A DNA stretch of 64,000 bases from Paramacrobiotus metropolitanus (taxonomy: Eukaryota; Tardigrada; Eutardigrada; Parachela; Macrobiotidae). The notes under the pieces were generated by a model. The model had not been told where the DNA came from and did no database searches. It worked only from the letters and a program-made list of their open reading frames with translations. The number at the start of each line of letters is the position of its first letter. Position 1 is the stretch's first letter. Positions 43,976 to 64,000 of the stretch are shown piece by piece. The stretch is from assembly GCF_019649055.1 (NCBI RefSeq), contig NW_026570398.1, positions 124,001-188,000 on the forward strand. Direction: 5' to 3'. Position numbers and translations under genes: made by a program.

Positions 43976-44092
43976 GACTCGCAAAGGTCACAGGTCCTGT
44001 CCACCGTTTGCCGCACATTGGCCCATTCCGCTCTGTTGAGCAATCCTGCGCATCCATAATGCGACTTTTCATCACAATCCGCTTGAGAATCA

Positions 44093-44480
44093 GGTGCGTA
44101 TCAAGTACGACTTAGGAATACTGCTTCAATCTTTGGAATATGGTGCGTATCATTCGTACGACTTCAAAATGAGATCCAATAAAGGTCATGGAGGGACGTC
44201 AATGAAGACAAGCGTAGTTCGCTTCCTCCCTAGTAAAGGTCATCCTTTGTTGAGATGATCCGTTGAGATGTGCGACTCATTTTGGGTAAATGGTCCCAAA
44301 GGTCATGCGACTTGAATTCCAATACGGTGACTCTTGTTGGGCAATTGATGATCCCAAAGGTCATCCGACTTTTCGTCAAACTTCCATTAAAGGTCATGGA
44401 GGAACTTAGCCAATTTTCTGCGGCTTTCAAGCACTTCTTTGCTTGCCTCCCTGGTAAAACTTGCAGTTTGACCTTTACGT
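44093..44480. repeat. Repeated modules with AAAGGTCAT and paired hairpins in the element tail
   Basis: The word GGTGCGTATCA-(3 or 4 nt)-GTACGACTT occurs twice (44093 and 44141). AAAGGTCATGGAGG occurs at 44181 and 44389. Each of these opens a hairpin whose other arm is CCTCCCT followed by A/G-GTAAA (near 44226 and 44448), with an inner AAGC/GCTT pairing in both. AAAGGTCATGCGACTT and AAAGGTCATCCGACTT (44298, 44356) make a further pair. Confidence 0.7.
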
Positions 44481-44513
44481 CGCACATTCAACTTCAGTAT
44501 GCCTCGAGCGGCC

Positions 44514-44963
44514 AGAGTGCCGGCAAGTTTACCGTAGCATCTCTGATGGGGCCGGCTAGTTACCGCATTAAGTTTACCCCATGAAATTTCCACCTTAAAT
44601 CTTTTACTCTTGTTCGCCGCTTGTGGCTTACGTTATTACGAGAAATCCGGCTTGGTTACCGTAGTTTTTCTCGTTTTAATTTTAGCACTGAATTGCTTAA
44701 AAAGAGTGCCGGCATAGTTTACCGTAACAACTCTAATGAGGCCGGCTAGCTGCCGCATTAAGTTAACCTCATCAATATTCCACCTGTTGTCTTTCTCTTT
44801 TTCGCCGCTTGTGGCCCCGTTTCGTATTCAAGAGATCCGGCTTGATTACCGTAGTTTCTCTTGTGCATTTATAACACTGAGTCGCTTAGAGAGGAGGGCC
44901 GGCTAACTGCCGTAGCAACTCCCTTGGGGCCGGCTTTATAGACCGAATCAATTTCAACCCCAA
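44514..44963. repeat. Array of eight stem-loops with conserved loop and covarying stems
   Basis: Stem-loops lie at 44514-44544, 44546-44582, 44638-44674, 44703-44734, 44736-44772, 44829-44863, 44893-44922 and 44924-44963. They fall in a repeat of about 189 bp (2.5 copies). All loops contain CCGGC, then 4-6 nt, then ACCG or GCCG, then T/C-A. Stem pairs differ between equivalent hairpins but stay complementary: AGAG/CTCT against GGAG/CTCC; ATGGGG/CCCCAT against ATGAGG/CCTCAT against TTGGGG/CCCCAA; ACGAGAAA/TTTCTCGT against CAAGAGA/TCTCTTG. The pairing is canonical on either strand. Confidence 0.85.
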
Positions 44964-45149
44964 TAGATATTCCACATGATTTCTTTTAGGCAATTCTGTG
45001 CTATAAACGCTGCAAACAACAAATACACAAATACAGTTAATGTTAACATGTCACGTGTCACGCCCTTTATACAACACCATTTTCATCTTTGTGACGTACC
45101 GACAAATGCCGTAGACGTCCTTTTAATAGTGTGATCCTAACGATCAGCA

Positions 45150-45629
45150 CTATTCCATTTCATTGGAATCGCCCTCGCCATCTCTCGGCGGGCGTTTCTT
45201 AACGCTTTCCGGTTGGTTTCGATCGGAAGTTCGGTCAACTGGTTCCGTCGAGTCAACTTCCATGACCTTTGTCGGGTCAACTTCGCGCTGGCCACGACCT
45301 TTACCTTGGCGACTTCGTTTAACCGCCTCAAGTCGATGGCGTGCGTCATTTTCTTCGAGTCGCAGTCTTCGGTTATCAGGGTCTTCCGCCAATCGACGCT
45401 GCACGTCGGCGAGATTATCCCGCAGCTGTTGGTTTCGTATGCCGCGTCGTCCCATCTGGTTAGGCGCACGGTCTGGGCGACGGTTACTTTTCTTCACCAA
45501 GAATTCATCAATGTAGGTTTCGATTCCGTCCACCGGTTCGACGTAGTCGCTTCCCAGAGAATCTTTGATCTTATTAATCCTTTCTTCTACTTGGGAGGCA
45601 TGGCGCTGTATCAAGTTGCCCTTTTCCAT
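45150..45629 (-). CDS. Retroelement accessory ORF: charged coiled-coil-like protein
   Basis: A 159-codon open frame (from M-E-K-G-N-L-I-Q) without known motifs. It is rich in Arg, Asp and Glu, with heptad-like stretches (N-L-A-D-V-Q-R-R-L-A-E-D) that suggest a coiled coil. It is the last coding frame before the structured tail. It may be the C-terminal part of the preceding frame after a frameshift near 45.65 kb. One AAAGGTCA (45263) is in it, read as T-K-V-M. Confidence 0.5.
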   Translation of the reverse strand: MEKGNLIQRHASQVEERINKIKDSLGSDYVEPVDGIETYIDEFLVKKSNRRPDRAPNQMGRRGIRNQQLRDNLADVQRRLAEDPDNRRLRLEENDARHRLEAVKRSRQGKGRGQREVDPTKVMEVDSTEPVDRTSDRNQPESVKKRPPRDGEGDSNEME

Positions 45630-45700
45630 TCGTGTCTTACACTTTTTCAGCGCCTTTCGAGCTGTGCGCTATGCTGATATGTTCCATCGGTTGTCCCAAT

Positions 45701-46543
45701 TTAGCGACACAGAGCTCGGAAGAACGGTGGAATGTCGTCCTTCATAGTATTAGACACCAATTGATTCTGTGTCTTGTAATGTGCCAGTCTCGCGGCAAGA
45801 CCTTTTTGCCCCATCCTTTTTGCGGCATAGTCCTTAGGATCCACCTGTAGTCCTATCGATGCTCTTGCTGCAAGCAACTTGAAGCTGGATTCATGTCGTA
45901 AAACAAACTGAGCCACGTATTCTTGTCGTTCAGGATAGTCTCTGTAATAGAACTGTGTGTCATCCCGATTGGTCAGTTGTGTCCGTAGTACATCAATAAA
46001 CAAATCCACCAAACTGTAGCCCATTCCGTCGGATAGGAGATAACAGTCCATGCTGAATCGCGGTGGATGAATAACCGACGGAAAAGTCCTTGTTCCACTC
46101 CTGTTTAATCTCTTTCGCGTATCGAGTCAAGTAAGAATTGGCTCAGCTGTCTCAGAATTGTGCCAATTTTGTATGACCGAATCCGATTCAATACCAAAGT
46201 ATCGACAAATTTCGACCGTTTGCTCATCAATATCAGTCGTGTTGTATTCCATATCAATACTTTCAGGACGTCGGTTGTCAAATCTGGAGTTCTGTCGCTG
46301 ATCAGCCTGGCGATGATTATCCGGTTCTCGTTGACCTTCCAGTTCGCGTTGTTCTCCTGACTCGGGCTGCGACGGTTCATTACTCGCCGGTGAAGCCGGT
46401 TGAAGGTCACTATCCAAAATCACGTTTCGTCGATGGGTCACGTTTTCTTGAGGAGCTTCCGCAATCGAGCTAGTCCCTTCCATCGCATCGTCTTCTTGTA
46501 CGACGCTCACAATTGGATCCACAACGTGAACCATTGACTCCAC
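45701..46543 (-). CDS. Retroelement accessory ORF in two frames
   Basis: An open frame from 46543 to 46127 (acidic, Glu/Gln-rich, disordered in look) is followed by one from 46051 to 45701 (L-V-D-L-F-I-D-V-L-R-T-Q-L; more globular). The two are probably one protein broken by a frameshift near 46.09 kb, since both have clean codon character and no signals between them. No family recognised. Confidence 0.45.
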
Positions 46544-46979
46544 CCGCTGATACTTTGGGGTGAATCTTCCGTTCAGTGCTTGATGACCTTTACTTGCGCC
46601 TGATCAAGGTCGCATAAAATACAGCTCTCTGTTGCCATCTTTTATCCTGTAGGTCGGTGTTCGATTCCGCGTTTGTTCGCGTCTTTGTCCCATGACCTTT
46701 CAGGTGTTGACATTTTGATTGCGATTCCGGAATGCAACTCCCATCGGCACCTGATGTCCTTGCTTCTCGGGTTCTGTACGGAATGTCTCCGCACGCCGTT
46801 TCTCTTCACGTCCTCTTGTGGGTTGCCAAGATCTTTGCCGTATCGATTTTCCTCTGAACACCTGTTCTGTTACTTCATTTTCCATGGCGCACCCATCCTC
46901 TTCCGCCACCACATTAATCGGTCGCGAGAGTGTTCGCGTGACCTTTCGCTGTAGTAGTCACGTGTTCTTTCACGAGTGT

Positions 46980-47888
46980 TCACGTGACCTTTCGCTGTCT
47001 TTCAGAAATCCGTTCATGTTCGTGAATGTCCGCGTGACCTTTCTCTATGCGGAGGCGATCGAGGTCGATGAAACCTTCGTCCCGTTTAAAACTTCTGAGT
47101 GCTTGCAGCACATCGCTTTCGGTTCGGCGAGATTTACGTAGGTCATCCATACGTCTTTCGACTTCCTTCTTTATGTAGGGTGCCGGCGCGAACCCGTCTT
47201 GAAGTCGTTTCTTCTCCCGCAACAGCATTTTGAATATCTCGTCTGACATGGCAGCTGGATCTTTCGTTATCGTTTCAATTTGTATGATAAGCGACTGTCG
47301 TACGAGTTGCATTTCGTCTTCATTAAGGCTGGCCATGCCCGTAGGTGCAACTAAACTCGATGTGCTGGGAAGCCCCTCTCGTGCAGCCTGTTCACTTGCT
47401 CTCTTATTTTCCGCATTAATTTTCGCGCGGATTTCGTCTTCCATCTGCTGAGCTCGCATCTTCGCTTGGTCTTCTTCAAATTTCTTCCGATACGCGTCTG
47501 TCTGTGGACACTTCAACGGCTCCAAGGTGTCATCCCAGCCAGGTTCGTTGTTTCGGATCGCTTCTCGATAACGATCTTCGAATAGCATTCGCTCTTCTAC
47601 TGGGATGCTGCCGTAATTTCTTGCGCTTATGAGATTTCGAAAAACGTCCAAGTTCCCACGTTTGGCTTCCATGACCCCAACAAGCGTGACGGTATGTGGG
47701 TCTTCCAGCTTGTGAATACAAGTGTAGCAAGGGAATTTCTTGTCAACCTTTTTGTTGTTCCTTAAGCAGTCCGGACACTTTGGATTATAGCCCGTAAACT
47801 GATCGATGTCTGCCGCCATTCCCGAACGTTTAGAAGGGGCTTGACCTTTTTGTGCCATCTTTCTCTTCAATCTGCAATTATAAAACAA
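46980..47888 (-). CDS. Retroelement accessory ORF with zinc-ribbon-like Cys pairs
   Basis: 302 codons. Near the N-terminus lies C-P-D-C followed 13 residues later by C-Y-T-C, a C-x2-C...C-x2-C arrangement that could bind one zinc ion. The rest is helical and charged (a long Glu/Lys/Arg-rich stretch in the middle). The last codons run through two closely spaced AAAGGTCAC words (46985, 47035), read as K-V-T and K-G-H. Role unknown; a nucleic-acid-binding protein would fit. Confidence 0.55.
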   Translation of the reverse strand: MFYNCRLKRKMAQKGQAPSKRSGMAADIDQFTGYNPKCPDCLRNNKKVDKKFPCYTCIHKLEDPHTVTLVGVMEAKRGNLDVFRNLISARNYGSIPVEERMLFEDRYREAIRNNEPGWDDTLEPLKCPQTDAYRKKFEEDQAKMRAQQMEDEIRAKINAENKRASEQAAREGLPSTSSLVAPTGMASLNEDEMQLVRQSLIIQIETITKDPAAMSDEIFKMLLREKKRLQDGFAPAPYIKKEVERRMDDLRKSRRTESDVLQALRSFKRDEGFIDLDRLRIEKGHADIHEHERISERQRKVT

Positions 47889-48187
47889 TCCATCATAGTA
47901 ACCTTTTCGACGTTAATCCTTTCCATGTTAAGGCTTTTCTATCATTTTTACGCCTATTCCGTTACTGAGCTGAGACTTTCCTAGCTCCTGTTGCCTTTTC
48001 TATCACTGTAACGTGGTGACCTTTCTCACGTTATCAGCACTTTCTGACTACTGTGACCTTTTCTATTAGTCCTAGTACTGCTTTCAGTTGACCTTTCGTA
48101 ACACTTTTCGCTTTCGTTTTAAACTGTTTTATGCTTTTTCTGTAATATGCAGGGTTCATTACTCGCTGCATATTACACTATATTAGT

Positions 48188-48568
48188 TCACTCGGATTCT
48201 TTCGTCGATGGTTTATACGGCTTAAAATCGATTCGGCCATCTGGCTTAATATGAAGCACTTCGTCCGAGATCAAGGCTTCAACGGCATTCTTAATCCACT
48301 CCTTATCGCTTTCAATATTCAATTCTCCCAATTCATAATTGACGGCCATGAAGTTCGAAAGGTCATTCCATGACGCTCCATTTGTACCGCCGATGGCGTC
48401 CAAAGCCACATCTGTGATGGCTATCTTCCAGGCCTCCAGTTCCATTTTCAGTCTGGGCGTTCGTTCCGTGCCCTGTTTCGGAAGGTAGTAAACGACTTTG
48501 TTATCCTTATTGTATTTACATCCCAGCTTTCCTTCTTTATATGCTCGTTTCAGAGCTCGTTCAGTCAT
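48188..48568 (-). CDS. Retroelement accessory ORF, winged-helix (linker-histone-like?) protein
   Basis: 126 codons from ATG 48568. Residues about 40-115 look like a winged helix: helix I-A-I-T-D-V-A-L-D-A-I, then G-A-S-W-N-D-L-S-N-F-M-A-V-N-Y, a third helix W-I-K-N-A-V-E-A-L-I-S-D, and a wing V-L-H-I-K-P-D-G-R-I-D-F. The order and the final strand resemble the globular domain of linker histones H1/H5, but similarity is by eye only. If right, the element would carry its own chromatin- or DNA-binding protein. Three AAAGGTCA words cluster upstream (48017-48096) and one lies inside (48358). Confidence 0.5.
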   Translation of the reverse strand: MTERALKRAYKEGKLGCKYNKDNKVVYYLPKQGTERTPRLKMELEAWKIAITDVALDAIGGTNGASWNDLSNFMAVNYELGELNIESDKEWIKNAVEALISDEVLHIKPDGRIDFKPYKPSTKESE

Positions 48569-48613
48569 GTTAAGTGACGACCTTCCGTTCTGAATTTATT
48601 GCCACTTGTCTCT

Positions 48614-51367
48614 TCAGATCTGTACCAAGCATCTCTTTTCTCGGATGATCTGGAGCGCGTTCTGGACTTCGTTCCATGTACGATTATTCACGTCCAATGC
48701 CGGCCCTAACATGTAATCTGTAGCCTCCTTAGCCGGTGTACCGCTACTTTTCTGGGAGGATGTCGAGTCCGTTGGGTCAGCCGTCGCTGTCTCGTCGATC
48801 CTCAGCTTTGCCAGTGATCCTGATGATGACCCCGCCGATTTTGGTTCGGCTGTCTTCTTCTCCTCCTGTGGCAAAGTCTCTTGACCTTTTAAATCGCCGA
48901 CCGACTTCGATCGTTCCTTCTCAAAGACGTCCTTTAATGGTATGAACAGTGATTTGTGAAACACCTGGCGCGCCGAATCCGCTTCAGCTTCTGCCGCTGC
49001 CTTATCCATCGGGAGCATGACCTTTTCTTTCTCCCGTTTATCTGACGTCTCATGACCTTTCGGTTGATCTTCTGCGGTAGTTCCAGATGTTTCTTGACCT
49101 TTCGACTGTTCATCTTTTTCTGTCGTAAGTCCAGAAGGAGCCGTTGTTGTAGTATCGTCATCACTTCCCGATTCCGAGTCCATTGGGCCTTTTGTCTTCG
49201 ATGAAACTGTGACCTTTTCCATGTCCTGACTGTCGGACATATTACAGTGGATCTGTCTTTCCGGTGGTATTAGACCGACTCTCGTGTATCGGATCGGGTG
49301 TCCTTTATGTGCGTTTGTCGTGGCAAGGACGTTCTGTTTAATCAACTTTGGCAATACGCGCTCGGTTGCCGTGTCGATCTCCTTTATCATTCCATTTCCG
49401 TCGTTCCAAACTGCGTTGATGTATTGGCTAATCCGGTGACTCGTTGATCCTAACGGGCTTGTCATTCCTGCGATTGCCCTTTCTACTCGCATTGGGACCG
49501 CTTCATTCGGAGTTGTCAGCGCTTTATCCGAGCTGGCTGGTCTGAACAACTTGGCTTCATACGAGAAACTCGGGTGCTTCTGTATAAGTTTTCCTGCGTT
49601 CCGCGCGAATTCCAATACGACGTCGAACTTTTGTTTAGTGAAGCTACGATGTTGTTTCTTCAAATACGTCTTCAGGCCTGCTTTAAATTTGGATGTCACC
49701 GATGCTGTTCTTATTCGTGTGAAATTCTTTTCAGCTCCGTTATACGCTCTGATTACTTCATCGACCGTGTTCAAATTATCATCATCGGGACCATCAAATT
49801 CTTCGTCTGAGGTGAAGTCCAGTTCACTCTCTCCATCTGGTTCAGTGTAATTAACCGTCGCTAATGCGTCGATTTTCGTGACTGTCTTGCCCTTTCCTTT
49901 GGTCTTAACGGGTTCGCTCTTTGCTTTTTTCCCTTTATCCAGAGCTTCCGCTAAGCTTCTTGGTTCAGTGGTTCTTGATCGTGTCGTTTTCGAGTCCGTG
50001 TGTGACCTTGCACTGACCGTCGAAGTGCTTGGAAGGCTCACTTCCGATGCCTCCGATTCACGCGACGTCTCCCGTTTCGCTTTTTCGCGAATCTGTTTGT
50101 CCTTGCGCTCCTTTGGCGTGGATGCGGAAATGACAATGGGGACAGCTTGTTTCACCGCTATGACCTTTCCTTTGAGTTTTGATGGCTCTGCTGTAGCCGA
50201 TTGAATAACTTTCTTTGACTTCGTAGGTGTCGATGACCTTTCTTCAACTTCGCCAACTGACTCGTCCAATATCTCGACATCATGCGACGCTGGTTCATCT
50301 CTTTTCTTCTTCCCGGTGCTTGTGCTATCGCTTTCGTCACCGCTCTTCTTCTTCTTATCTTCTTCCTCCTGTCGTTTCTTCTTATCTTCTTCCTCCCGTC
50401 GTTTCTTGAGAAAATCGCCTTTCTTAACCTTGTCACGGTTCATGGCCTCTTCCAATCTGGGCGCTTTTCTCGATTTGACTTTTGAGGGCTTCGCTTTTGA
50501 GGGCTTTTTATGCTTGTCGGCCATTTCTTCGTCTGAGCCTTCTTCCTCAGGTGGGTCCTCGTCTTCCGACTCTGGTTCGTCGTCACCAGGTGGATTACAA
50601 TAGCCACAGTTTGGTTCATCACACTGAAGGTGCTCATGACTTCCTTGGGCAATCTCGAGTACTCTTTGTAGCGAGCGTCTGGCCCCTCCTGTTTCGGTTA
50701 CGTTTGCCGGCGTGCCCTGCGCCTCTTCCGTCTCTCCGGCTCCGCCTTCTTGTGCCGGGGGATGAATTTCCAAGTGTCTTGTCTCTTTCGGAGATCCCTG
50801 TGAGGCGACCTCCCACAAAGGGTTCTTCTTAGCGTCGTAAAATACCGTTTTGTACGACCCGTCTTCCATTCGTCTTGTCAGTCGGAAATGTGCTCCATCG
50901 ATTTCCGCTCGATGCCGCATCATGCTGATCAGTGTACTCGCTTGAACCACGGCATCTTTTCGGTCGCTTTCAGGTATCAGATCCCATAGCTGGTCAATAG
51001 CTGCCTGATTCGCATTTCGGGCGCTCTCTTCTGATACATCCCATGGGGCATATGGGACCGGGTCTCCTGTTATTGGGTCCACTATCACCGCAGTTATGGT
51101 TTCCACAGCTTCTCCATTACCAGCGAAAAGTCTGAGGGTGACCTTTCTGCTTGTCGCCTCTGTATACCTCAGGACCGACTCATAATCATCTGACGATCGT
51201 TTCTTCGGATCTGGATCCGCCGTCGGTTTTGAGCGAGTTCTCTCTTTGATCAACAGTTTGCCGTCCGTTGTGTATGTATATGCCAAGTGGTCATCATCTG
51301 TGCCCACTTTGATACGGATCCATGCATCTTCTTCGGTTGCAACTTTAGATACCACGTGCTTCATCAT
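48614..51367 (-). CDS. Retroelement large accessory ORF (917 codons)
   Basis: This is the longest open frame of the window. The N-terminal ~190 residues look globular (W-I-R-I-K-V-G-T-D-D-D-H-L-A-Y; I-T-A-V-I-V-D-P-I-T-G-D-P). A Cys cluster (C-D-E-P-N-C-G-Y-C) is followed by a long Lys/Glu/Ser-rich disordered region, then a second globular block at about residues 525-680 (V-I-R-A-Y-N-G-A-E-K-N-F; R-I-S-Q-Y-I-N-A-V-W-N-D), then a Ser/Glu-rich C-terminus. There is no signal peptide or TM segment and no recognised family. AAAGGTCA words are used in all three frames here: as K-V-T (51139), K-G-H (49053) and E-R-S (50234). Uninterrupted length over 2.7 kb, while gag and pol are broken, is notable. 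Confidence 0.65.
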   Translation of the reverse strand: MMKHVVSKVATEEDAWIRIKVGTDDDHLAYTYTTDGKLLIKERTRSKPTADPDPKKRSSDDYESVLRYTEATSRKVTLRLFAGNGEAVETITAVIVDPITGDPVPYAPWDVSEESARNANQAAIDQLWDLIPESDRKDAVVQASTLISMMRHRAEIDGAHFRLTRRMEDGSYKTVFYDAKKNPLWEVASQGSPKETRHLEIHPPAQEGGAGETEEAQGTPANVTETGGARRSLQRVLEIAQGSHEHLQCDEPNCGYCNPPGDDEPESEDEDPPEEEGSDEEMADKHKKPSKAKPSKVKSRKAPRLEEAMNRDKVKKGDFLKKRREEEDKKKRQEEEDKKKKSGDESDSTSTGKKKRDEPASHDVEILDESVGEVEERSSTPTKSKKVIQSATAEPSKLKGKVIAVKQAVPIVISASTPKERKDKQIREKAKRETSRESEASEVSLPSTSTVSARSHTDSKTTRSRTTEPRSLAEALDKGKKAKSEPVKTKGKGKTVTKIDALATVNYTEPDGESELDFTSDEEFDGPDDDNLNTVDEVIRAYNGAEKNFTRIRTASVTSKFKAGLKTYLKKQHRSFTKQKFDVVLEFARNAGKLIQKHPSFSYEAKLFRPASSDKALTTPNEAVPMRVERAIAGMTSPLGSTSHRISQYINAVWNDGNGMIKEIDTATERVLPKLIKQNVLATTNAHKGHPIRYTRVGLIPPERQIHCNMSDSQDMEKVTVSSKTKGPMDSESGSDDDTTTTAPSGLTTEKDEQSKGQETSGTTAEDQPKGHETSDKREKEKVMLPMDKAAAEAEADSARQVFHKSLFIPLKDVFEKERSKSVGDLKGQETLPQEEKKTAEPKSAGSSSGSLAKLRIDETATADPTDSTSSQKSSGTPAKEATDYMLGPALDVNNRTWNEVQNALQIIREKRCLVQI

Positions 51368-51429
51368 CTGAACGATAACTCTTGGGTTATGACGTTCTTC
51401 TGGAGGAATAAACTGTAGCGCCTCATTGA

Positions 51430-52088
51430 CTATCGTTTTGACTCTTTCCCAATGGCATCCTTGACTGACCTATCCGCGAGGGGATTATACGAGTCGATCT
51501 CTTTGTTCGTTTTCTTATCGACTATTCGTGCAGTGACCTTTCGTTCTTTATGATCTTCCCCAGTGTATTTGGCCGTGAAACTTCTACACTTCGGGAATCG
51601 AATCTGACCTTCTGTTCCTTTCGGCGTGGGTGGTACACTCTTTCTACCCACTGGAATCGGGGCCTGTGGCTTTGCCGGCTCAGCTGGTGTTGCTTTGCTT
51701 TCTGTGGGCTTCTTTGTTCGCTGCCCTTTCTTATCAGTTTCTTTTGGGCTTGTCGTCGGTGATCTCACTCTTTTCCACTCTTCGTGGTGCCACTGGATGG
51801 TTCTGTGACCGAACTAGTACGTCCACGTCCTGATCCTGCAACCGAGCTGGCCCGTGACCTTTCTGCTCGTTCCGTTAATACGGCATCAATCTTCTGCTTT
51901 GTGGCCAAAAGGTCCTCGTCCGTCATTTCATCAACCGGGGCATCTTTTTCAGCTCTGGGTTTAGATGGTCCCGCGACGCTGGTAGGATGCATCTGTCTTG
52001 TTTCCGGGAACACTTTAAGATACTTAAGGATCTTTTCGACGATCGAAGGCCATGGCCTACCATTTAGCGACGGGTGGTATTGCCACAT
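51430..52088 (-). CDS. Retroelement accessory ORF, two overlapping frames
   Basis: 52088-51765 (W-Q-Y-H-P-S-L-N-G-R-P-W; then a helix with D-L-L-A-T-K-Q-K-I) and 51768-51430 (Pro/Lys-rich, then F-T-A-K-Y-T-G-E-D and K-V-T-A-R-I-V-D-K-K-T). The end of the second frame resembles the start of the 917-codon protein (I-T-A-V-I-V-D-P-I-T-G), so the two ORFs may be duplicated modules or parts of one protein separated by an indel. Confidence 0.45.
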
Positions 52089-54244: not shown

Positions 54245-55920
54245 TCGTCTGGAGTTCCGTAATCATCGGGTATATTCGTTTTTGTAACCACATCTTCCGG
54301 CATTGTCATTTCTCTGCCGTGTAGCATATAGTATGCTGAATATCCCGTTGTGGCGTGCACGACTCTGTTCATCGCCGAAATAACATATGGGAGATACTTG
54401 TTAAACTTTCGCTCATTTCCCGCTTTTAGGTATTGCGCCAAGCCATCAGCAATCGTCTGCATCTGTCTCTCCACTTGGCCTTGACCTTCTGGGTGATACG
54501 CCGTTCCAAATGTGTGTTTAATTTTAAACACATTGGTGACCTTTGCCAATACTTCAGCTGTAAAGTGTCGTCCGCGATCCGTATGCAGGATGTGCGGTGC
54601 TCCGTGTACCAATATCACGTGCTTCACGAACACTTTAGCGAATTCTTTAGCCGTTGCTGTTTTCATTGGTACCGCAATCACATATTTCGTCAGTTGGTCG
54701 ATAAACACCGCTATGTACTTGTATCCACGTTTCTTCGTCGGTAACAAAGGTCCTTTCAAGTCAGCATATACTCGGAAGAACGGATGTCCCACTTTAATCT
54801 CTTGCAATTTTCCAGGTGGACATTTCCTCGGTGTTTTACGGAACTGACATCCTTGACAGGCGAGTATGTAATTCTTCACGTCTGTACTCATCCTGTCCCA
54901 GTAATATCGGAGTCTTATTGCTGACAATGTTTTCTCAAATCCCAGATGTCCCGCTGCTTTCTCGTCGTGCAATGCGTGGATTATTGCTCTTCGCATTGAC
55001 AACGGTACAACATATGACCTTTCAAGTTTTCCATTTTTATCCTTTACTCGGTATAATATACCATTCCATAACTGGTAATGCACTTCAAATTTCGATCTTG
55101 TTTCCGCGTCTGGTAGGTGTTCCAATTCGTCTATGATCATTGCCAGATGGGGATCTTTCAACTGTTTATTCCGCAATTGCAAGTTTGAGTCATCAACCTC
55201 TTCTTCGTCACCTTGCAGGTTGACAATGCGAACTGTCGCTGTACTGAGTTCATTCCAATCCTTGATGACCTTGCATCGTGGTAACGGTTTATACCGCTTT
55301 TTCGCCTGTTTTGGGAATCTCAACAGTTTGATTGGGCATTCGTTCAACGCTTGTGCCACTTTGTCCGTTTCCCAAAGGTCATCTCTATTCTCCGCTCTAT
55401 CATCAAGTCCCGTGACCTTTCCATTCTGCATTTGAGATTCCGCGTCAAGTCCGGTGACCTTTAAGTCACTAACGGCGGGCAACCAGCTTCTCACTCGGTT
55501 CACTTTTGCTTCGTTTTCAGCCGACTCGTTCGCCGTAGCTGAAGTGACCTTTAATCGTTTCTCCCTCTGTTCCACCATCTGCAGGAACAGCTGTCCAACT
55601 TCAATTGCCGGTTCCTTCGTATCAAACTCCTTCTTGTAATCCTCGAAATTCGGAATCTCGTCAAATTCTTCTTCGTGACACGTCGGACCTTCAATTGGCG
55701 CTCTTGATAACGCGTCCGCGTTGTCACAATATTTTCCCGGTTTGTATTCGATTTTAAATTGGTGACCTTGTAATGCCATTGCCCATCTTGTCAAACGCGG
55801 GTTCATTCCAACTTTGTTCGTCTCTGACCTTAGCAAATTGGTCAGCGCCTGATGATCCGTCCTTACGGTGAATTCCAGCATAATCAATGTACGGCTTGAA
55901 TTTCCTGACAGCGAACACAA
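54217..55920 (-). CDS. RNase H C-terminal end and integrase
   Basis: 567 codons. At the start lies the last RNase H catalytic block (R-T-D-H-Q-A-L-T-N-L-L). The integrase has the zinc-binding HHCC motif (H-D-E-K-A-A-G-H ... C-Q-G-C) and the DDE core: first Asp in Y-A-D-L-K-G-P, second in H-T-D-R-G-R-H-F, Glu in G-Q-V-E-R-Q. All catalytic residues are present. Between them, about 150 residues of linker contain repeated K-V-T and D-L words from AAAGGTCA octamers (55374-55545). The enzyme inserts the cDNA into host chromosomes. Confidence 0.85.
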   Translation of the reverse strand: MCSLSGNSSRTLIMLEFTVRTDHQALTNLLRSETNKVGMNPRLTRWAMALQGHQFKIEYKPGKYCDNADALSRAPIEGPTCHEEEFDEIPNFEDYKKEFDTKEPAIEVGQLFLQMVEQREKRLKVTSATANESAENEAKVNRVRSWLPAVSDLKVTGLDAESQMQNGKVTGLDDRAENRDDLWETDKVAQALNECPIKLLRFPKQAKKRYKPLPRCKVIKDWNELSTATVRIVNLQGDEEEVDDSNLQLRNKQLKDPHLAMIIDELEHLPDAETRSKFEVHYQLWNGILYRVKDKNGKLERSYVVPLSMRRAIIHALHDEKAAGHLGFEKTLSAIRLRYYWDRMSTDVKNYILACQGCQFRKTPRKCPPGKLQEIKVGHPFFRVYADLKGPLLPTKKRGYKYIAVFIDQLTKYVIAVPMKTATAKEFAKVFVKHVILVHGAPHILHTDRGRHFTAEVLAKVTNVFKIKHTFGTAYHPEGQGQVERQMQTIADGLAQYLKAGNERKFNKYLPYVISAMNRVVHATTGYSAYYMLHGREMTMPEDVVTKTNIPDDYGTPDEWVETMKRT

Positions 55921-56116
55921 CTGCCAGACATTCCCATTCTGTTACACCGTAATTCTTTCTCCGCTCCATGTAGGACACGACTGGCGTACGCGATCGGATG
56001 TCCATCTTGTGACAGTACGGCTCCGATTCCTTCTTTGCTCGCGTCGCATTCAATGACGGTCGGTTTCGCGGGTCAAACTTTGCCAGTACTGGACCTTCAC
56101 ACAACAACTTCTTCAA
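55754..56116 (-). CDS. RNase H N-terminal part, frameshifted
   Basis: The frame begins L-L-C-E-G-P-V-L-A-K-F-D-P in the tether. The expected catalytic block (D-A-S-K-E-G-I-G-A-V-L) sits in a neighbouring frame between about 56065 and 55975. The first frame then resumes (V-T-E-W-E-C-L-A-V-V, the Glu motif) before passing to the integrase frame at about 55865. At least three indels fall within 250 bp, so no continuous RNase H can be made from this copy. Confidence 0.65.
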   Translation of the reverse strand: MKKLLCEGPVLAKFDPRNRPSLNATRAKKESEPYCHKMDIRSRTPVVSYMERRKNYGVTEWECLAVVFAVRKFKPYIDYAGIHRKDGSSGADQFAKVRDEQSWNEPAFDKMGNGITRSPI

Positions 56117-56898
56117 ACTATTGAACTCTTCTTCATGTACTGCCGTCCAGTCCTTTTCACGTGTTTATCTTGTCTCAGCAACTCATACAAGTGGCAAGTC
56201 TTCTGTGCGTATCCCATTATGAACTTGCGATAATAATTCGCCAGTCCAAGGAATGACCTTAACTGCCTTTCTGTTTGAGGCCGTTTGAACTCTGAGACCG
56301 CGGTGACCTTTTCCGGGTCCATACGAATTCCGTCCTCGCTGAGTATATGACCCAGAAATCCCATTTGTCTCATTCCAAATTCGCATTTCGTTGGCTTAAT
56401 CGTGAATCCCGCTTCCACCAGACTCATTAAAACATTTCGCAGATTCTGCATGAAAATTTCCCAAGTTTTTCCGGCGAAGATCACGTCGTCGATATACCCG
56501 AAAACGCAACCCTTTCTTTTCGCTTTCGAAAGTACTTTGTCCATACACAATTGAAATGTTGCTGGTCCGTTGCATACGCCAAATGGCATCCTTTTAAATC
56601 GGTACATTCCATCTTGTGTTACAAAGGTCGTCTTGTTGATTGACGCTGGATCCATTGGGATCTGCCAGAATCCACTTTGTAAGTCCATTTTTCCGTAATA
56701 TTTGTTGCCTGCGCACGCGTCGAGCAACTCATCCGGATTTGGTAACGGGTAATTATTCTTTCTCGTTAGCTTGTTAAGCATGATGTAATTGACGCAAAAT
56801 CTTGTTCCCATTGTTCCGTCGCCATTTTTCTTTACTGCCAATACGACTGGGAAACTCCACTCGGCGTCTGACGGTTCAATTACATCTTGTGCCAACAT
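56113..56898 (-). CDS. Reverse transcriptase core
   Basis: 261 codons. Fingers/palm: D-V-I-E-P-S-D-A-E-W-S-F-P-V-V, F-C-V-N-Y, L-P-N-P-D-E-L-L-D. The first catalytic Asp is in K-M-D-L-Q-S-G-F-W-Q-I. The Y-I-D-D box (G-Y-I-D-D-V-I-F-A-G) has both further Asp, then L-G-H-I-L-S-E-D-G-I and F-L-G-L-A-N-Y-Y-R-K-F. These are the standard Ty3/gypsy RT blocks. The start shown is only the first Met in this frame; the domain begins upstream, after a frameshift in a G-run at about 57005. Confidence 0.9.
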   Translation of the reverse strand: MLAQDVIEPSDAEWSFPVVLAVKKNGDGTMGTRFCVNYIMLNKLTRKNNYPLPNPDELLDACAGNKYYGKMDLQSGFWQIPMDPASINKTTFVTQDGMYRFKRMPFGVCNGPATFQLCMDKVLSKAKRKGCVFGYIDDVIFAGKTWEIFMQNLRNVLMSLVEAGFTIKPTKCEFGMRQMGFLGHILSEDGIRMDPEKVTAVSEFKRPQTERQLRSFLGLANYYRKFIMGYAQKTCHLYELLRQDKHVKRTGRQYMKKSSIV

Positions 56899-56983
56899 CT
56901 CTTCGATATGCTTTGTTATAAACTCGCGGCCTGTCCAACTCGTTCTGGCCGGGTTACATTTTACTGGTTTCGCATCTCCCGTA

Positions 56984-57989
56984 TCAATTACGTGGGTGAC
57001 CCCCTTTCACATCTCCATACGGTTTCTTTGATGTGGGTAAGACTTTCCAGAATTCCCAAAACGCGTTGTACACGTCGTTTTTCTGCTCTTGGGTAAGGTC
57101 AGGTCCCAATTTCAGGTTTTCGATTATCTTTTTAAGTTCAGCTTTCGTTGTCTCATCCACCTCAGGGTCTTCGAGTACGTTCTTTACTGTCCCTGCGTTG
57201 ACCTTTACATTCTCCATATGTTCATACGGCTCAACGTAGCCGAGAAGCTGATTTTTCTTCACGATTCGGTATTTGCTACTGTGATTTGCGATAACGATTT
57301 CGAAGTATTTTCCCCTGTGGTCCGTCACTCCTGCCAACGGTTGCACTTCAGTTTCCACTTGTGGGACCGGTGTAAACATCAACTTGTTTTGTGCCGGTGC
57401 ATATTTTCCCATCTTGACCTTTACACGTGTGCAGTTTGACGGTTTCAACTTGATTCGTTGGTCGCTGTAGACTTTGATCACGTCCTTCGACATTCTAGCT
57501 TTTTCCACTTTCAATCTTCTGACTTTAATATCCTTTTCTTTTTCCTCATCTACTTCGTCATCTTCATCCAAGTCCATTAAATCCTCTTGCTCCGAAAGGT
57601 CACTTACACCTGAATCTTCCGAAGTTGTTGAGTTATCGCTTGAACTCGTCCACTCGGAGTCGGAGTTACTGCTCTCATATTCTTGTGCAGTGGCTTGACC
57701 TTTGTCAGCCTTTTTCGAGTGGACGCTCATCAACTCCTTCATCTTCTGATGAAAGGTCACTTTCGTTTTCCCGCGAATCGCTAAGTTTTTCGCTTTCGAA
57801 TTTTTGAGCAGGGTTTGTCCCTTCTTTTGCCTTTCGCCCATTTCGTGCGGCGACTCTTGGGTGACTCCTTGCTACCCGAATTCTCGTTGGTGACCTTTCT
57901 GATTGGTCGGAGTTTGACCTTTCTTCGTCCGATTTTGACTTTTCCAGTTCATTTATTTCTTCGCGGCTCGTTAATGGCTTTTCGGTCAA
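56984..57989 (-). CDS. Pre-RT linker region, acidic
   Basis: Two frames (57989-57705 and 57841-56984) overlap. Coding character passes from the first to the second near 57715, which implies a frameshift. The N-terminal half is Glu/Ser/Asp-rich, with heavy AAAGGTCA content (57595-58023). The second half is a small beta-rich block (Y-F-E-I-V-I-A-N-H-S; L-L-G-Y-V-E-P-Y) of the kind often found between protease and RT in Ty3-like polyproteins. Confidence 0.55.
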
Positions 57990-58188
57990 CTCGACCGGCG
58001 GACATTCCTCACCGTTATCGAGTGACCTTTCCCGTTTTTTGCCTCAGTTACTGGGTTTTGTTGTTCGTTCGATATCCTTTCAACTTCCTCTTTAAACCTT
58101 TTCCACATTTCACCTCTGTCCGTTAACATCTGCGCAATATCGAAAGCCGACTTTGAACTTTCTTCTGTTTCATTCGATTGTCCTTCGG

Positions 58189-59174
58189 CTATCTCTTTAA
58201 CTGGTTCTCTTTCTCTGCTTCTTTGACAGTCCCTTTATTGTTTTCATCCTGTTGAACTGTTTCGTAACCTTTAGGTCGTTTAGGACCAACGAAAATGCAG
58301 TTTGCCATCAGTTCTTCGGTGACCCATTCATCATTCGGAATCGTTTCATACATGCACCATGTATCACCACCTCGTTCTGGGTAGTCCACTCCATCTGGAT
58401 CTGGTGCAAAGGTCACCTTTTTCTTTTGCACTAATCCCGGTAACCTTCTTTTCCGGGTAACCTGTAGTTCTCGCATCTCTTTTACGTCAAATTTGGGGAT
58501 TTCTTCCTCGAATTTCTTCCAGTATTTCTCGAATGCTTTTTCGTTTCCCTCTTTTAACGCGTTGTAGTACACTTCAAGTGATTCGTAGACAGGTGTACCA
58601 AGTCCTGCCGGGAAGATGATCGTTCTCCTTCACCTTTATACATGTGGTTCACACGGAAGTCCCAGAAAAGGTCAACTCTCGCTTCTTCCCACATTTCTCC
58701 TTCCTCGGTCATTTCTTCTATCTCTCGTTCAAATCTCCTTTCTGTTGCTACCGGATCGAGAGGATCTTGGATTCCTTTCTCGACACGTTGCAACCAATGG
58801 TTTAGCCATCTGCCTCTTCCAATTATAAAACTTTCCACACATGACAACCACGTTCGATATCTATTCCAATGATACCGTTCGATGTGTGGTTTCCACATTT
58901 CGTTTGTCCGCATGATGCTTTTCGCTTTCTTTTGGGCATGACCTTTAAGGTCTGCTAATGCGGCATTACATCTTGGCCATTCTGAAGGGTCATCTTGAGA
59001 GGCATTTTCACAACATTCCGCGCATTCCCATTGTGGTTGCACTCTGCACGGATCCTCAAAGTAACCGTGGTGACAACTCCCGGCTCGTTCTTCTGGAGTT
59101 AATGTCCTTTGACTCGCTTCAGGTTTAACCTGTTCCTGTACTGTGGTATCTTCCTCACATTCGATTGGAGTCAC
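58189..59174 (-). CDS. Retroelement ORFs of unknown function between protease and RT
   Basis: 59174-58554 (206 codons) contains a Cys/His-rich segment (C-H-H-G-Y; C-A-E-C-C) and then a Trp-rich helical part (H-W-N-R-Y-R-T-W; G-R-W-L-N-H-W-L). 58572-58189 (127 codons) has a core with G-G-D-T-W-C-M-Y. The two frames overlap by about 20 bp, so they may be one protein with an indel. Such an insertion between PR and RT is not usual for Ty3 elements. The Cys/His segment could be a zinc site. Confidence 0.45.
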
Positions 59175-59298
59175 GCTTTTATCCTCAGAGGATATTTCAA
59201 TGACCTCTGGTTCTTTTCTGTTCGGTGACCTTTCAATTGTTCGAGTGCCTTGTCGCGGATTTCGCTTGTAAACATCTGTTCCTCTTCAACTATTCGTT

Positions 59299-60396
59299 TC
59301 AAAACTCGTAACCTTTCACTCTTTTATCCTTCCCCACTTTAGCCGTCTTTATTTCCAGTGCCTCTGGTACTGGGATAGGCTTTGCCCACTCCATGTCTGG
59401 CACAAGAGATTGTTTCGCTGCAACTGCCGCTTCTTTCTGTGTGGCAATTATCTCTTCAATCGTTGGTGACCTTTCGGTAGCAGGTCGTGGTTCGAAAAGG
59501 GTTCCTTTGAGAGTCACGTTCTGTTACTTCCTCTTTGGCTTTATCTGGTAGCCTTTCATTTTGGGTAGCAGATCGTGGTTCGAAAAGGTTCGAATTACGC
59601 CTGGTTCCAAGTTCTCAGTTGCTGGTGACCTTTCGTCTTCCTTTCCCAGTGCCTCTGGTACTGGATAACTTTTCACTTTCTTTTCCTCATTTCCGATCTC
59701 TTCTTCCGTGTGTTGTCTACTTCTTTTCTTTTTTTTTTTCTTTTCTCCGGTGCCTCTGGTACTGGATAATCTGTTCTGCTGCACTTTTGTCATTCCTGGT
59801 GCCTCTGGTACTGGGATGACTTTTCTCTTCCTTTGTGTCAGCATAGTCCGATTTAATGTCTTTTCGATCTCCTGCTGAATCATTTGCAACTGCTCAAATG
59901 GTGACAATTCTTTTCGCGTCATCTTTTTCTTTTCGTTTCCCGGTGCCTCTGGTACTGGGATTAGCGTTTTATTAACCGTTTGAGCATTTCCCGTCTGTTT
60001 TACAAGTTCGGTGACCTTTCCGACTTGAACTTTGGCGACTGGTTTGGGGTCATCTTCTTTTTCTTCTTCACCTTCATTATCCATCAGTACGAATTTCTTT
60101 TCCAAGAAGTCAAATCCCAATAACACTTGTACGTCGTCACACTTCGGTCGGACGTAGAATGAATGTTCGCTTGTCTTCTTCCTTAAGGTCACTGGTGCTA
60201 CGCAGTAATGCGTCACCAGGAATCCTGACGTTCCGCTAATTCCGTTTATTTTCACCAATCTGTCTGGTGGCAATGGGAGCATATGAAGTCCATTCTTCTC
60301 GCAAAACGGTTTGCTGATCAGCGACGTCTCAGCGCCGGTGTCCAACATTGCGTTGACCTTTATGTCTCCCACTTTCACTTCGTGTGTATGCTTCAA
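59299..60396 (-). CDS. Retropepsin (aspartic protease) with repeated tail
   Basis: From 60396, D-I-K-V-N-A-M-L-D-T-G-A-E-T-S-L-I holds the catalytic D-T-G-A. A flap-like G-I-S-G-T-S-G-F follows, and V-L-L-G-F-D-F-L matches the conserved I-L-G-x-D-x-L end. The mature protease is about 110 residues. The tail (59.5-60.05 kb) contains several copies of I-P-V-P-E-A-P-G, from the DNA word CCAGTACCAGAGGC, plus a copy of the F-E-P/F-S-N word (GGTTCGAAAA). A further fragment at 59517-59299 continues in another frame. Role: cleavage of gag-pol polyproteins. Confidence 0.82.
59369..59962 (+). repeat. Dispersed GCCTCTGGTACTGG word, five copies
   Basis: Copies lie near 59369, 59650, 59751, 59799 and 59944. 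On the coding strand most are read V-P-E-A; one is read S-S-T-R-G-T in another frame. They cluster in the protease tail and are interleaved with AAAGGTCA and GGTTCGAAAA words. Confidence 0.7.
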
Positions 60397-60440
60397 TTCT
60401 CTTGGGCAATTTTCCGTTTTGAATCTTCAAAGTGTGAATC

Positions 60441-60887
60441 TTACATTTCACAGGGAATGAGCGATACTGGTCCTGGATCCATATCGGGAAGCACTTGTCC
60501 TTTTGCTGGAGTGCTATGACCTTTCAGTATCTCGCTCAACTTATCAATCCTATGTGGAACATTAGTCCGAACATCGTAATATTTTCGCGGCTTTTCTTTA
60601 TTTGTTCGCTTCTCTGTAGCCATTTTACCACTGGTGACCTTTCCACATTCTGCACTTGCTCATTTGCTTTTGTGCTATCCCATGTGACCTTTAGTCACTT
60701 CATTTATCGTCTGATGGATCAGTTCCTCTTTACGGTTTTCATTTCGTTTATCTCTCAGCTTCTCAATGACTTCACTTGTTATTTGGTCCGCTTGCTTCAG
60801 TTCGTCTTCTTCGCTATCTTTCATCTCATCTGGTGACCTTTCATATGTAACCATGTCATATCCCTTTTCGGTCATCCATTCGATCAC
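60441..60887 (-). CDS. Small retroelement ORFs upstream of protease
   Basis: 60887-60675 and 60623-60441 are short, charged frames (E-D-E-L-K-Q-A-D-Q-I-T-S-E-V-I-E-K-L is helical). They probably bridge the 475-codon frame and the protease with indels between. Three AAAGGTCA octamers fall here (60635, 60685, 60834). Confidence 0.35.
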
Positions 60888-60899
60888 TTTGCAGACACT

Positions 60900-62327
60900 T
60901 CATTGTTCGTTTTCGTTGATCAATTTGCGAAGACATCCCGTCTGTTCGGGCTGGTGACTTGTCATTGGCATCCTTTTGCAGTGCTTGCGATAAGTCCCGT
61001 GACCTTTCAACTGCGCTACTCTGTTGCGTTTGCGCCATCTCATTTGACCGTCCTTTTGTTCATTTTGCGCTAAGTCCTGTGACCTTTCGTTGCGCTTCAT
61101 GACAAATCCGCCGTTCGTCAGCTTTTGTATGGGGACTTTTTCTCCATAATTCGGCGGTTTATCCTGTGGTGGAGCATTACGTGAATGATTCCAGTCAGCG
61201 AATGTCTTCTTATATTCCTCTGGATTGAATACTGGGACTGGGTTCGGTGACCCTTGCGCTGGTTTCCCGGTAACCAACTCTTCCAGTCGCTTTCTTTCAC
61301 ATTGCGTTCGCAACTGTTGCATGTCCCAGTAGTCCTCTTGTGACATTCTCGCTTTCTGCTTTGCTTTTGGCGTTACGGGTATCCACATCCCGTGATTGCC
61401 GTTCGGTCTGTAGGCCACTTTTTGCCACTTCTCCTTCTGTTGTAGTGTTACTGCGTCCACAAGTGAGTCGTCGGAGTTCTGTGCCATTTCATTATTCTTT
61501 TGCTGCGCTGTTCGCAGTGTCAAGTCTGTTTCTTGACCTTTTAACACGACGCTGTCGCCGTGACCTTTCACATTCGCACTCGCTCCTTGACCTTTCACTT
61601 GGACTTTTCCAACAGAAGGTGACCTTTCATCTTTACTAATAACGTTGATATTCTGCTTAATCCATTCTTGCCTTATTCGCTTCTCTTCTTCGTCTTCTGA
61701 ACAATTCCAAAACTTTGGCTTTGGCTCCCCGTAACAATCGCAACTTGGCTCCTTCGCCTTATCGTTTTCTGCCAAAAATTTCCGGAATTTCGCGTGTTGC
61801 TCATTTTCCTCTTGCGCAGTATCGTTCTGCGGTGGTGAATTTTGGTCTTTCGATTTGCCATTTATCTGTTTCCGAAACCATTCGTGGTGCATTTCCACTT
61901 CTTCTGCGGTATCAGTTTGCGGTTTCTTTTGGTTTAACAGCGCTTGTCGAATCTTGGCATTACGTAATGCACGACGTTCAGCTAACACTTTCTCGCTGCA
62001 ATACGGTGACCTTTCATTTTGCTGCACTTTTTGCAGTGTCGCGCTACCGTCACGACAATTTCCACTCGCAGTACCATTCTGCGGTGACCTTTGGTCCCGT
62101 TGCGCGTTTCCACTCGCAGTACCATTCTGCGGTGACCTTTGATTCTGTGACGGTATCCCTATAACCGTTCCATTTCCTTTTTGCGATGACGGCATCCATA
62201 TAGCCGTTTCTCTTTGCTGTGGCGGCATCCATCTAGCCGTTTCTTGTGGTTGCGGCATCCATATAGCCGGTCCATTTTGCTTTTTCGCTGACGGCATCCA
62301 TATAGCCGTTGCAGTGGTCACATTCAC
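60900..62327 (-). CDS. Retroelement ORF rich in Gln/Lys/Arg with short repeated words
   Basis: 475 codons, with no recognised domain. The N-terminal part repeats A-I-W-M-P four times (the DNA word GGCATCCATATAGCC on the plus strand at 62190-62310) and S-P-Q-N-G-T-A-S-G-N twice. The middle has K-G-H, K-G-Q, E-R-S and Q-R-S words, each coming from an AAAGGTCA octamer in a different frame. Lys/Glu-rich helices and W-I-P-V occur later. It lies between NC and protease, where Ty3 elements normally have nothing this long. It could be an extended gag p-domain or linker. Confidence 0.55.
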   Translation of the reverse strand: MNVTTATAIWMPSAKKQNGPAIWMPQPQETARWMPPQQRETAIWMPSSQKGNGTVIGIPSQNQRSPQNGTASGNAQRDQRSPQNGTASGNCRDGSATLQKVQQNERSPYCSEKVLAERRALRNAKIRQALLNQKKPQTDTAEEVEMHHEWFRKQINGKSKDQNSPPQNDTAQEENEQHAKFRKFLAENDKAKEPSCDCYGEPKPKFWNCSEDEEEKRIRQEWIKQNINVISKDERSPSVGKVQVKGQGASANVKGHGDSVVLKGQETDLTLRTAQQKNNEMAQNSDDSLVDAVTLQQKEKWQKVAYRPNGNHGMWIPVTPKAKQKARMSQEDYWDMQQLRTQCERKRLEELVTGKPAQGSPNPVPVFNPEEYKKTFADWNHSRNAPPQDKPPNYGEKVPIQKLTNGGFVMKRNERSQDLAQNEQKDGQMRWRKRNRVAQLKGHGTYRKHCKRMPMTSHQPEQTGCLRKLINENEQ

Positions 62328-62407
62328 TGCAGTACCATTCTGCAGTGGTGACCTTTCCCTTTTATCCGGTGGTTTAGGGTCGGGTCGATCAGTAGGCTCA
62401 CCGGTGC

Positions 62408-63334
62408 CTACTGATCTTGCCCGTTTCCCTGAACCGGCGCCCCTCCTTGTTGCGCGCCCTGCACATTTCCCTGTTGTTGTCCGATATCATTTGCCGGGTT
62501 AGGATTCTGTCCGCCACCGTTATTATATTGGCCGCCACCCTGTTGGTAGTTTCCTTGGCCGCCGCCATTGTTTTGGCCTCCTCTGAAGTTTCCGCGGCCG
62601 AAGCCTCTGTTTCTTCCTCTGAAGCCGCCGCGGCCGAAGCCACCACGGCCGTAGCCACCGTTCTGGCCACCGCCATTTCCATTTCCATAGTTCCCGTTTC
62701 CATTCCCTTGTTGGTTTTGGAAGTTTGCTTTGTGCTGATACCATTGGGTGATGAGGTCATATCCGTTTGCGACCGCTGGGCGCCAGCCACCTATAGCTCG
62801 GAGGCGTTGCCACTCGTTAAAGGCAAACAGATTCGGGTTCTGTTCTGGTGGTGTATTGGCGAACTTGCACCCCTGTGTCTGATGGTTGCCGTACATACAG
62901 TACTGGCACATCTGCGCGTTGTTCGCCACCCATCCGTCAATCATCTGGAACTTGAATTCAGTTCGTGACCCTTGTTGCTGTTGGTTTCCTCTGAAGTTTC
63001 CTTTGACCTTGACCTTGTCCCTGATTCTGGAAGTTTCCTTGACCTCCATTCCAATTTCCGTTTCCGTATCCATTTCCGCCAAAGTTTCCGTTACCCCTCC
63101 TTGTTGTGGTAACCCGACATTCATAGACCATATTCTGAGGTGCAGGTGGGGCTACATTCTGGGAGCCACATTCTGGGCTACTGGTCTCACCTGAGCTGCT
63201 GCCTGTATCGCCGCCACCATTGCGTATGTTAACGGTTGCCCGGTCTGACTGTCGATAAAGGTCACTTCTTTGTGACCTCTCTGCCGGCGCCTCCTGCGGT
63301 ATTCGACCGGCTGCTGGACTGGTGCAGCTGCCAT
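62408..63334 (-). CDS. Gag nucleocapsid region with zinc knuckle and RGG-rich tail, frameshifted
   Basis: One CCHC knuckle is clear: C-Q-Y-C-M-Y-G-N-H-Q-T-Q-G-C (C-x2-C-x4-H-x4-C). It is followed by W-Q-R-L-R-A-I-G-G-W and a Gly/Arg/Asn-rich tail (G-R-G-G-F-G-R-G-G-F-R-G-R) typical of RNA-binding. N-terminal to the knuckle, the frame with Gly/Asn repeats (63150-63015) is shifted relative to both flanks, so two indels surround it. One is at a near-duplicate of CAGAATGTGGCTC at about 63170. Role: packaging of the element's RNA. Confidence 0.7.
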
Positions 63335-63419
63335 CCTCTGTTGCGGTACATTTCGACTTGACCTTGGCGGATGGTCACGTATTCCTGATTACGTTGACCT
63401 TTAGGCGCTTTATATTTAT

Positions 63420-64000
63420 CTTCTCCCGCTGACCAGTGACGGAAGAAATCTTACTCGGTTGGAGTCCTGCACTTTTATGCGCGCAGTGCTTTGTAGAGTT
63501 CACTGTCCACTCTACATCCTTCGATCAGGAAACCGACTGCTTGCTTTTCAGTGATGATCCTTTTCGCTTTGAATCATCATCGCTTGATAAAACTGGTCAA
63601 GCGATTCTTTTCCGAGTTCAATTTCTTTTGCATAGGCTTCTCGTAAGCCAAGACTTCTTCATCTCGATCTCCATATTCATCTTTGAATTTGGCCATCCAT
63701 TCCGTTATTGTATATTCTGCTCTCCTGGAGTGCGATCTCTCTCTCCTTCGAACCAGGTTTTCGCTGGTCCTTTCACCGCGCTGGCTATCTCAATTAATAT
63801 CTGGTCGTCGGTGAGGTGGTACGTCTTTGGGTTTCTTTCACCAGTTGTGTCCACCCATTCACTGTGTCACGACTGCCGTCAAAGGTCATGAGTGGTGTTT
63901 TCGTTCACTAATCTCTGTGTCGCATCATTGTCTTCTGCCGTACTGGAGTCACTATCATCGTCCTTATTTCGCTTCGCTTTTCCGTAGCGGGACTTCCTTG
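63420..64000 (-). CDS. Gag capsid-like region, broken, cut by the window edge
   Basis: A frame near 63.85-63.72 kb reads L-T-D-D-Q-I-L-I-E-I-A-S-A-V-K-G-P-A-K-T-W-F, the capsid-type motif (helix, then G-x-A-x-x-W). It then changes frame to W-M-A-K-F-K-D-E-Y-G-D, and later to E-S-L-D-Q-F-Y-Q-A-M-M. These blocks appear in the usual gag CA order, but in three frames. The gene starts beyond 64 kb. Confidence 0.5.

Follow-up and report, generated by a model that had tools for sequence, protein, structure and literature searches.

What keeps one exact eight-base word, AAAGGTCA, in place many times over within a retroelement whose genes it crosses in three frames and on both strands? The question arises from a 64,000-nt stretch of the genome of the tardigrade Paramacrobiotus metropolitanus, here called the window (contig C178, positions 124001-188000, in a genome set of 169.8 Mb and 533 contigs). 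Its minus strand carries what domain matches and database hits identify as a degraded copy of a Ty3/Gypsy-type long terminal repeat (LTR) retroelement. Passages of PMC3554661 identify this word as the NBRE, to which NR4A receptors bind as monomers. Comparison between copies of the element shows that the octamers are a selected, orientation-independent DNA-level signal of one retroelement lineage, kept by purifying selection.

Excess of the octamer

The window holds 85 exact copies of AAAGGTCA on its two strands, against a mean of 2.84 and a maximum of 7 in 100 dinucleotide shuffles. The initial annotation had counted about 72 in 20 kb with about one fifth inverted, which agrees closely with the 73 found at positions 43983-63888: 57 on the minus strand, which is the element's sense strand, and 16 inverted on the plus strand (22%). 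A first-order Markov model predicts 0.79 sense and 0.17 antisense occurrences in the same segment, where the octamer is the commonest 8-mer. Its 24 one-mismatch words sum to 43 against 21 expected, so it is the exact word that is in excess. The annotated end of the element at 63888 did not hold, as the element runs to window coordinate 67760 and carries 21 more octamers past the window, giving 94 in the whole 24,460-nt stretch. Genome-wide, the octamer occurs 42,562 times against 15,522 for its reversed control, and the octamer followed by G occurs 4,042 times against 2,427. Chance or base composition as the source of the octamers is ruled out by the dinucleotide shuffles together with the synonymous shuffles described below.

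A more specific explanation would derive the octamers, as a side effect, from codon usage, peptide repeats or tandem duplications. They do fall in the recurring peptides KGH/KGQ, ERS and KVT, and two of the three direct-repeat families of at least 40 nt hold a few of them (D3 has one in each copy, and one D2 copy starts inside an octamer). However, shuffling synonymous codons fails to reproduce the count: the 2,567-aa open frame of one other copy (L072) contains 41 octamers, where 500 shuffles gave a mean of 4.09 and a maximum of 11. Nine of the ten open reading frames (ORFs) of at least 240 aa in the window exceed their shuffle mean, and the tenth holds no octamer. Among the 73 octamers, 45 are inside listed ORFs (39 sense and 6 antisense), and the sense sites are spread over the three phases (12, 12 and 15), being read as KGH/KGQ, ERS/QRS or KV-type peptides. 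With all three frames and antisense sites in use, synonymous codons held between copies and G avoided as the next base (both described below), a by-product of any of these kinds is barely credible, and its codon and peptide forms are ruled out by the frames, the inverted sites and the synonymous conservation.

Conservation between copies

At 29 reverse transcriptase (RT) loci besides that of the window, 406 of 432 aligned octamers are intact, compared with 58.7% of other 8-mers. Summed from the per-site list, the intact sites are 302 of 317 in the sense and 104 of 115 in the antisense orientation. The contrast is sharpest in three diverged stretches at 74-76% identity, which keep 67-87% of their octamers, in both orientations, against 10-11% of background 8-mers. 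The individual values are 13/15 octamers against a background fraction of 0.113 in L072, 17/20 against 0.111 in L071 and 12/18 against 0.104 in L064; L073, which together with L064 represents two pieces of one copy, has 4/6 against 0.227. A separate count over 15 loci finds 11/13, 16/19 and 12/17 octamers kept in the large loci. The same count is less clear for small loci on contig C1, some of which overlap (3/6, 1/2, 2/3 and 5/8), and a related family keeps 0/1.

Codon choice carries the signal as well. Where two copies share an amino acid, the codon is identical more often inside octamers than elsewhere in four of six pairwise comparisons: L072 with the window (36/41 versus 508/1059, p = 1.8e-7), L071 with the window (48/57 versus 585/1200, p = 5.5e-8), L072 with L071 (57/64 versus 829/1231, p = 7.5e-5) and L072 with L064 (42/50 versus 637/1064, p = 2.9e-4). 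The six comparisons share sequences and are not independent; the remaining two are weighed below. Between L072 and the window, the amino acids inside octamers are not more conserved than those outside (41/62 versus 1106/1629), which argues that the constraint is not on the protein. The initial annotation had proposed that protein constraint could not explain the array and that it was a double-stranded DNA signal read in different frames, and all of these points are borne out by the shuffles and by the conservation of octamers in both orientations beyond flanking and other 8-mers.

These comparisons also bear on a signal in the element's transcript, such as a packaging, stability or small-RNA site. 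The presence of 57 of 73 octamers on the sense strand would suit such a role, but antisense sites are conserved as well. The sense-strand excess is no greater than composition predicts: 34 sense and 7 antisense sites were observed where synonymous shuffles give 3.89 to 0.25, and the Markov expectation is similarly lopsided. We consider an RNA-level function very improbable.

The element and its copies

The element is at least 24.4 kb long and extends past the window to the end of the contig, which stops within the 5' LTR. A direct pair of LTR pieces lies 24.1 kb apart, at window coordinates 43367-43630 and 67508-67760. Because these pieces are only 89.4% alike (265 columns), the insertion is probably not recent, though other copies keep very long open frames. 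The pol domains run along the minus strand from 60426 to 54220 in the order protease, RT, RNase H and integrase. Within the window, the following features can be assigned.

43367..64000, minus strand: in-window part of the Ty3/Gypsy-type retroelement, from the LTR pair, pol domains and octamer density
43367..43630, minus strand: inner part of the 3' LTR, paired with 67508-67760 (89.4% over 265 columns)
43983..44396, plus strand: six octamers clustered at the 3' end, every one inverted relative to the element (exact counts); also in copy L073, at 7940-8384
44469..63888, both strands: the remaining 67 octamers of the in-window part, 57 sense and 10 antisense
46983..47912, minus strand: second-ORF piece with no Pfam match, about 43-47% identical to pieces of L073
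48191..48595, minus strand: second-ORF piece whose winged helix resembles that of linker histones (Linker_histone below cut-off at E = 0.017)
48617..51469, minus strand: second-ORF piece of 951 aa, charged, with no Pfam match
52103..53083, minus strand: 327-aa stop-to-stop frame between pol and the second ORF, with no Pfam match
54220..55941, minus strand: end piece of RNase H plus integrase zinc-binding and core domains (Integrase_H2C2 2e-20, rve 2.3e-12; RT_RNaseH 9.4e-5, just below cut-off)
56116..57006, minus strand: reverse transcriptase (RVT_1 1e-26)
59527..60426, minus strand: aspartic protease (gag-asp_proteas 1.1e-8)
60903..62486, minus strand: 528-aa frame upstream of the protease, with 10 sense octamers and no significant Pfam match

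The window copy is broken into many short frames, whereas many other copies hold open frames of more than 1,000 aa. It is therefore degraded, and intact-looking copies exist elsewhere. In the RT search, 132 of 1,530 first-look candidates were scored and all 132 matched at E <= 1e-20, with 131 at 77-100% identity and one, on contig C7, at 73%. Searches of the window for Rfam families and tRNA genes found none. As to the host, its receptor gene L070 matches a protein named for Paramacrobiotus metropolitanus at 100% identity over 98% of the query, and a nematode was rejected, as neither TTAGGC x4 nor SL1 (allowing one mismatch) turned up. Outside the element, a 445-aa ORF at 5439-6776 matches CS and TPR domains.

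Shape and arrangement of the sites

A site profile was built from 62,741 bases in five sequences (the window element, L064, L073, L071 and L072), which contain 269 octamers where 3.04 would be expected. These are followed by C in 137 cases, T in 65, A in 58 and G in 9, although 558 of 2302 background TCA occurrences precede a G. This scarcity of G extends the motif to AAAGGTCAH. Substituting T or C for the first base, or G for the second, third or sixth, gives variants more than five-fold in excess; G at 1, T at 2 or G at 8 gives four- to five-fold, and variants of the GG core stay below two-fold. With the H that follows and the tolerance at positions 1 and 3, the profile resembles a receptor half-site with a 5' extension.

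Spacing between neighboring sites is also constrained. Summed over the five sequences, gaps shorter than 24 nt occur 3 times against 18.0 expected and gaps of 24-63 nt occur 89 times against 39.7. From these distances we infer that one protein may occupy each site with a footprint of about two helical turns. No strong period was found among the ten tried for site phasing.

The clusters at the two ends of the element are wholly antisense, with ten octamers at the 5' end and six at the 3' end. The 5' cluster occupies window coordinates 66193-66651 (C178:190193-190651, in L061). Counted by eye, nine of its ten octamers have the nearly palindromic form AAAGTGACCTTT, which sets them apart from sites elsewhere.

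Another host DNA-binding protein, such as an insulator, architectural or chromosome-pairing factor, could use sites arranged this way to anchor or insulate the element. The antisense end clusters would suit it, and passages of PMC2374998 provide a precedent in the 12 Su(Hw) sites of the gypsy 5' untranslated region. The tardigrade sites, however, cover the body of the element rather than one end region, with a largest octamer-free gap of 1,321 nt, and their word matches a receptor site. A factor of this kind is unlikely.

A host nuclear receptor as the proposed reader

At each AAAGGTCAH site, a sequence-specific protein would bind as a monomer. The most likely reader is an NR4A-class (HR38/Nurr1) nuclear receptor of the host, which would bind AAAGGTCAC. 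This class is favored because the word is the NBRE, as the initial annotation had recognized, and because the host keeps an NR4A gene. That gene, on contig C45 (L077), has two zinc-finger exons and a third with the A-box GRRGRLPTKPK; the best matches of these exons to a typed HR38 domain are 83, 76 and 67%. As an activator, the receptor would coat the integrated copy, or its cDNA, and keep the element open, driving its transcription in response to a hormonal, stress or germline cue and so opposing silencing along the whole body. We chose whole-body transcriptional opening since, in passages of PMC3554661, an NR4A protein activates synergistically from three NBREs in reporters. Our best explanation, which we hold tentatively, is thus that dispersed double-stranded sites over the coding sequence and both end regions may be read by a host NR4A-class receptor in an anti-silencing role.

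The octamer is also in excess beyond the element. In window positions 1-43300, which have no nucleotide match to the element families, it is the top over-represented 8-mer (12 versus 1.38 expected), and G is not avoided after it there (2/12). Host use of the word outside the element is weakly suggested by these counts.

Two further groupings were seen elsewhere in the genome. In L074 (C1:331001-333000), a locus picked for its cluster, positions 774-1080 contain five octamers (four plus one), three of the form ATATAAAGGTCACC, in AT-rich, noncoding-looking DNA that lies between GC-rich stretches and is unrelated to the element. At C1:2537724-2538368, eight copies of AAAGGTCAG at 90-91-base spacing form a tandem array that carries the octamer followed by G.

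Several observations weigh against reading the array as a conserved signal for an NR4A-class receptor. The codon signal is absent between L071 and L064 (70/76 versus 1391/1596, p = 0.13) and between L064 and the window (2/5 versus 266/589, p = 0.75). Eight receptor-gene loci, of which L076 overlaps L067, have no clear excess of the word, with 4 octamers against 5 controls when L076 is left out. A promoter or enhancer would have no need of sites within genes, yet these extend over coding sequence. In a related family of the same nucleus the octamer is missing and another word is enriched, which would suit a reader encoded by the element. Finally, the host also has two ERR-type nuclear receptors (L067 and L070) and FTZ-F1, and receptors of both types bind words similar to the octamer.

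Neither of these receptor types supplies a better target. The ERR site is TNAAGGTCA, and T precedes just 21 of the 94 octamers (14/73 in the in-window part of the element and 7/21 beyond it). The FTZ-F1-type word TCAAGGTCA occurs 4 times against 0.7 expected in 62.7 kb, which is too few for it to be the signal.

The second ORF and a possible element-encoded reader

It is possible, though less likely than a host receptor, that the sites are read by the element's own protein, for which the second ORF and its winged helix are the candidate. The precedent is the VANC proteins, which in passages of PMC5735166 read short motifs in their own VANDAL copies and remove silencing. In many other copies the second-ORF region forms open frames of about 1,600-1,850 aa, and the winged-helix ORF to which the initial annotation had drawn attention proves to be real and linker-histone-like. 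The Pfam cut-off for Linker_histone (22.4 bits) is exceeded in L073, at 25.7 bits, but the window piece scores 15.7 bits. Modeled with AlphaFold from a two-sequence alignment, this piece has a pLDDT of 71 and best matches H1/H5 globular domains, with a best E of 0.043 at probability 1.00 and none reaching E 0.001. The structure model of the middle of the second ORF is unusable (mean pLDDT 37), and no outside homologue of the 135-aa ORF was found at E 0.001 among 5 candidates.

Having an H1-like domain in the second ORF would favor the element's own protein, but such domains usually bind without sequence preference. In L064/L073 the winged helix is 43% identical to that of the window and its third helix is little conserved past the core positions, yet the octamer is unchanged. 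This constancy suits an unchanging host reader. The octamer excess at window positions 1-43300, outside the element, also counts against an element-encoded reader.

The related family (L062-L063, C7:905001-925000) bears on this alternative. Its RT is 73% identical to that of the element and its homologue of part of the second ORF is 27% identical over 137 columns. Its 20 kb contain a single octamer, at L063:8990, past the retroelement frames that end near L063:5400, and none lies in its ORFs. Instead, its top word is AGGGCCAA (15 versus 1.05 expected), and 20 copies of GGGCCAA lie in its ORFs, where 100 synonymous shuffles give a mean of 4.78 and a maximum of 9. The enrichment extends over more than one frame and both strands. 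Such a change of word from family to family would be expected of a VANC-like, element-encoded reader. However, Gly-Gln is encoded in one phase at 10 of the 30 GGGCCAA places, so this word may partly reflect repeated peptides. AGGGCCAAA shows no genome-wide excess, with 1,067 occurrences against 1,632 reversed. By eye, on the contigs covered by its first 100 listed places, it lies within 15 kb of 3/3 related-family copies and 0/8 copies of a third subfamily.

What the array could mean

The octamers might constitute a recognition code for the whole element, with each lineage marking its own DNA, a possibility that we regard as speculative. A regulator site about every 260 bases would run through the element's own genes while their proteins are kept working, and a 24-kb landing strip would result. 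Sister families would use different words (AAAGGTCA here, perhaps GGGCCAA in the other), allowing each to escape silencing or be switched on, in this case within an animal LTR element. Clusters of regulator sites are known, in the passages of the literature consulted, from untranslated parts of transposons; here a selected array over ORFs, in all frames and on both strands, forms a second code atop the protein code. Such an array makes it possible to test how an element resists silencing, whether a hormone-receptor-type factor wakes retroelements in a desiccation-tolerant animal, and how arrays of this type originate mostly without tandem duplication.

Comparison with known systems

Known NBREs are promoter sites and VANDAL21 of Arabidopsis is a DNA transposon, whereas the tardigrade array is dispersed through an LTR retroelement. 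The octamer itself is identical to the NBRE, and passages of PMC3554661 describe multiple NBREs as synergistic in reporters; the tardigrade array consists of predicted binding sites. No earlier description of such an octamer array was found in the open-access literature searched (one library).

The VANDAL21/VANC21 system resembles the tardigrade element in that a 9-base word is heavily concentrated in one family's copies, while other transposons rarely carry it (PMC5735166 and PMC10398659). This word, YAGTATTAY, acts in a manner where density matters, and related VANCs have other motifs (passages of PMC5735166). It is also sporadic elsewhere in the genome and forms arrays in one orientation, as the tardigrade octamers do only at the element's ends. 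In the same passages, VANDAL motifs are mainly in noncoding tandem repeats, while 45 of the 73 tardigrade octamers are in ORFs, in three frames and on both strands, with few in repeats.

The gypsy insulator offers a second likeness, in that a Ty3/Gypsy-type element carries arrayed sites for Su(Hw), a protein of the host that binds DNA; for the tardigrade element such a reader is predicted. As described in passages of PMC2374998, gypsy has 12 sites in 340 bp of its 5' untranslated region, compared with 94 over 24 kb, coding sequence included, in the tardigrade element. The latter resembles Burro of planarians (>30 kb) and Ogre of plants (16-25 kb), giant Gypsy-like elements with extra ORFs or domains, for which the passages of PMC6431247 do not describe a dispersed sequence word. 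Although neither is described, in the passages cited, with sites over coding sequence on such a scale, VANDAL/VANC and the gypsy insulator are the closest precedents for the tardigrade array.

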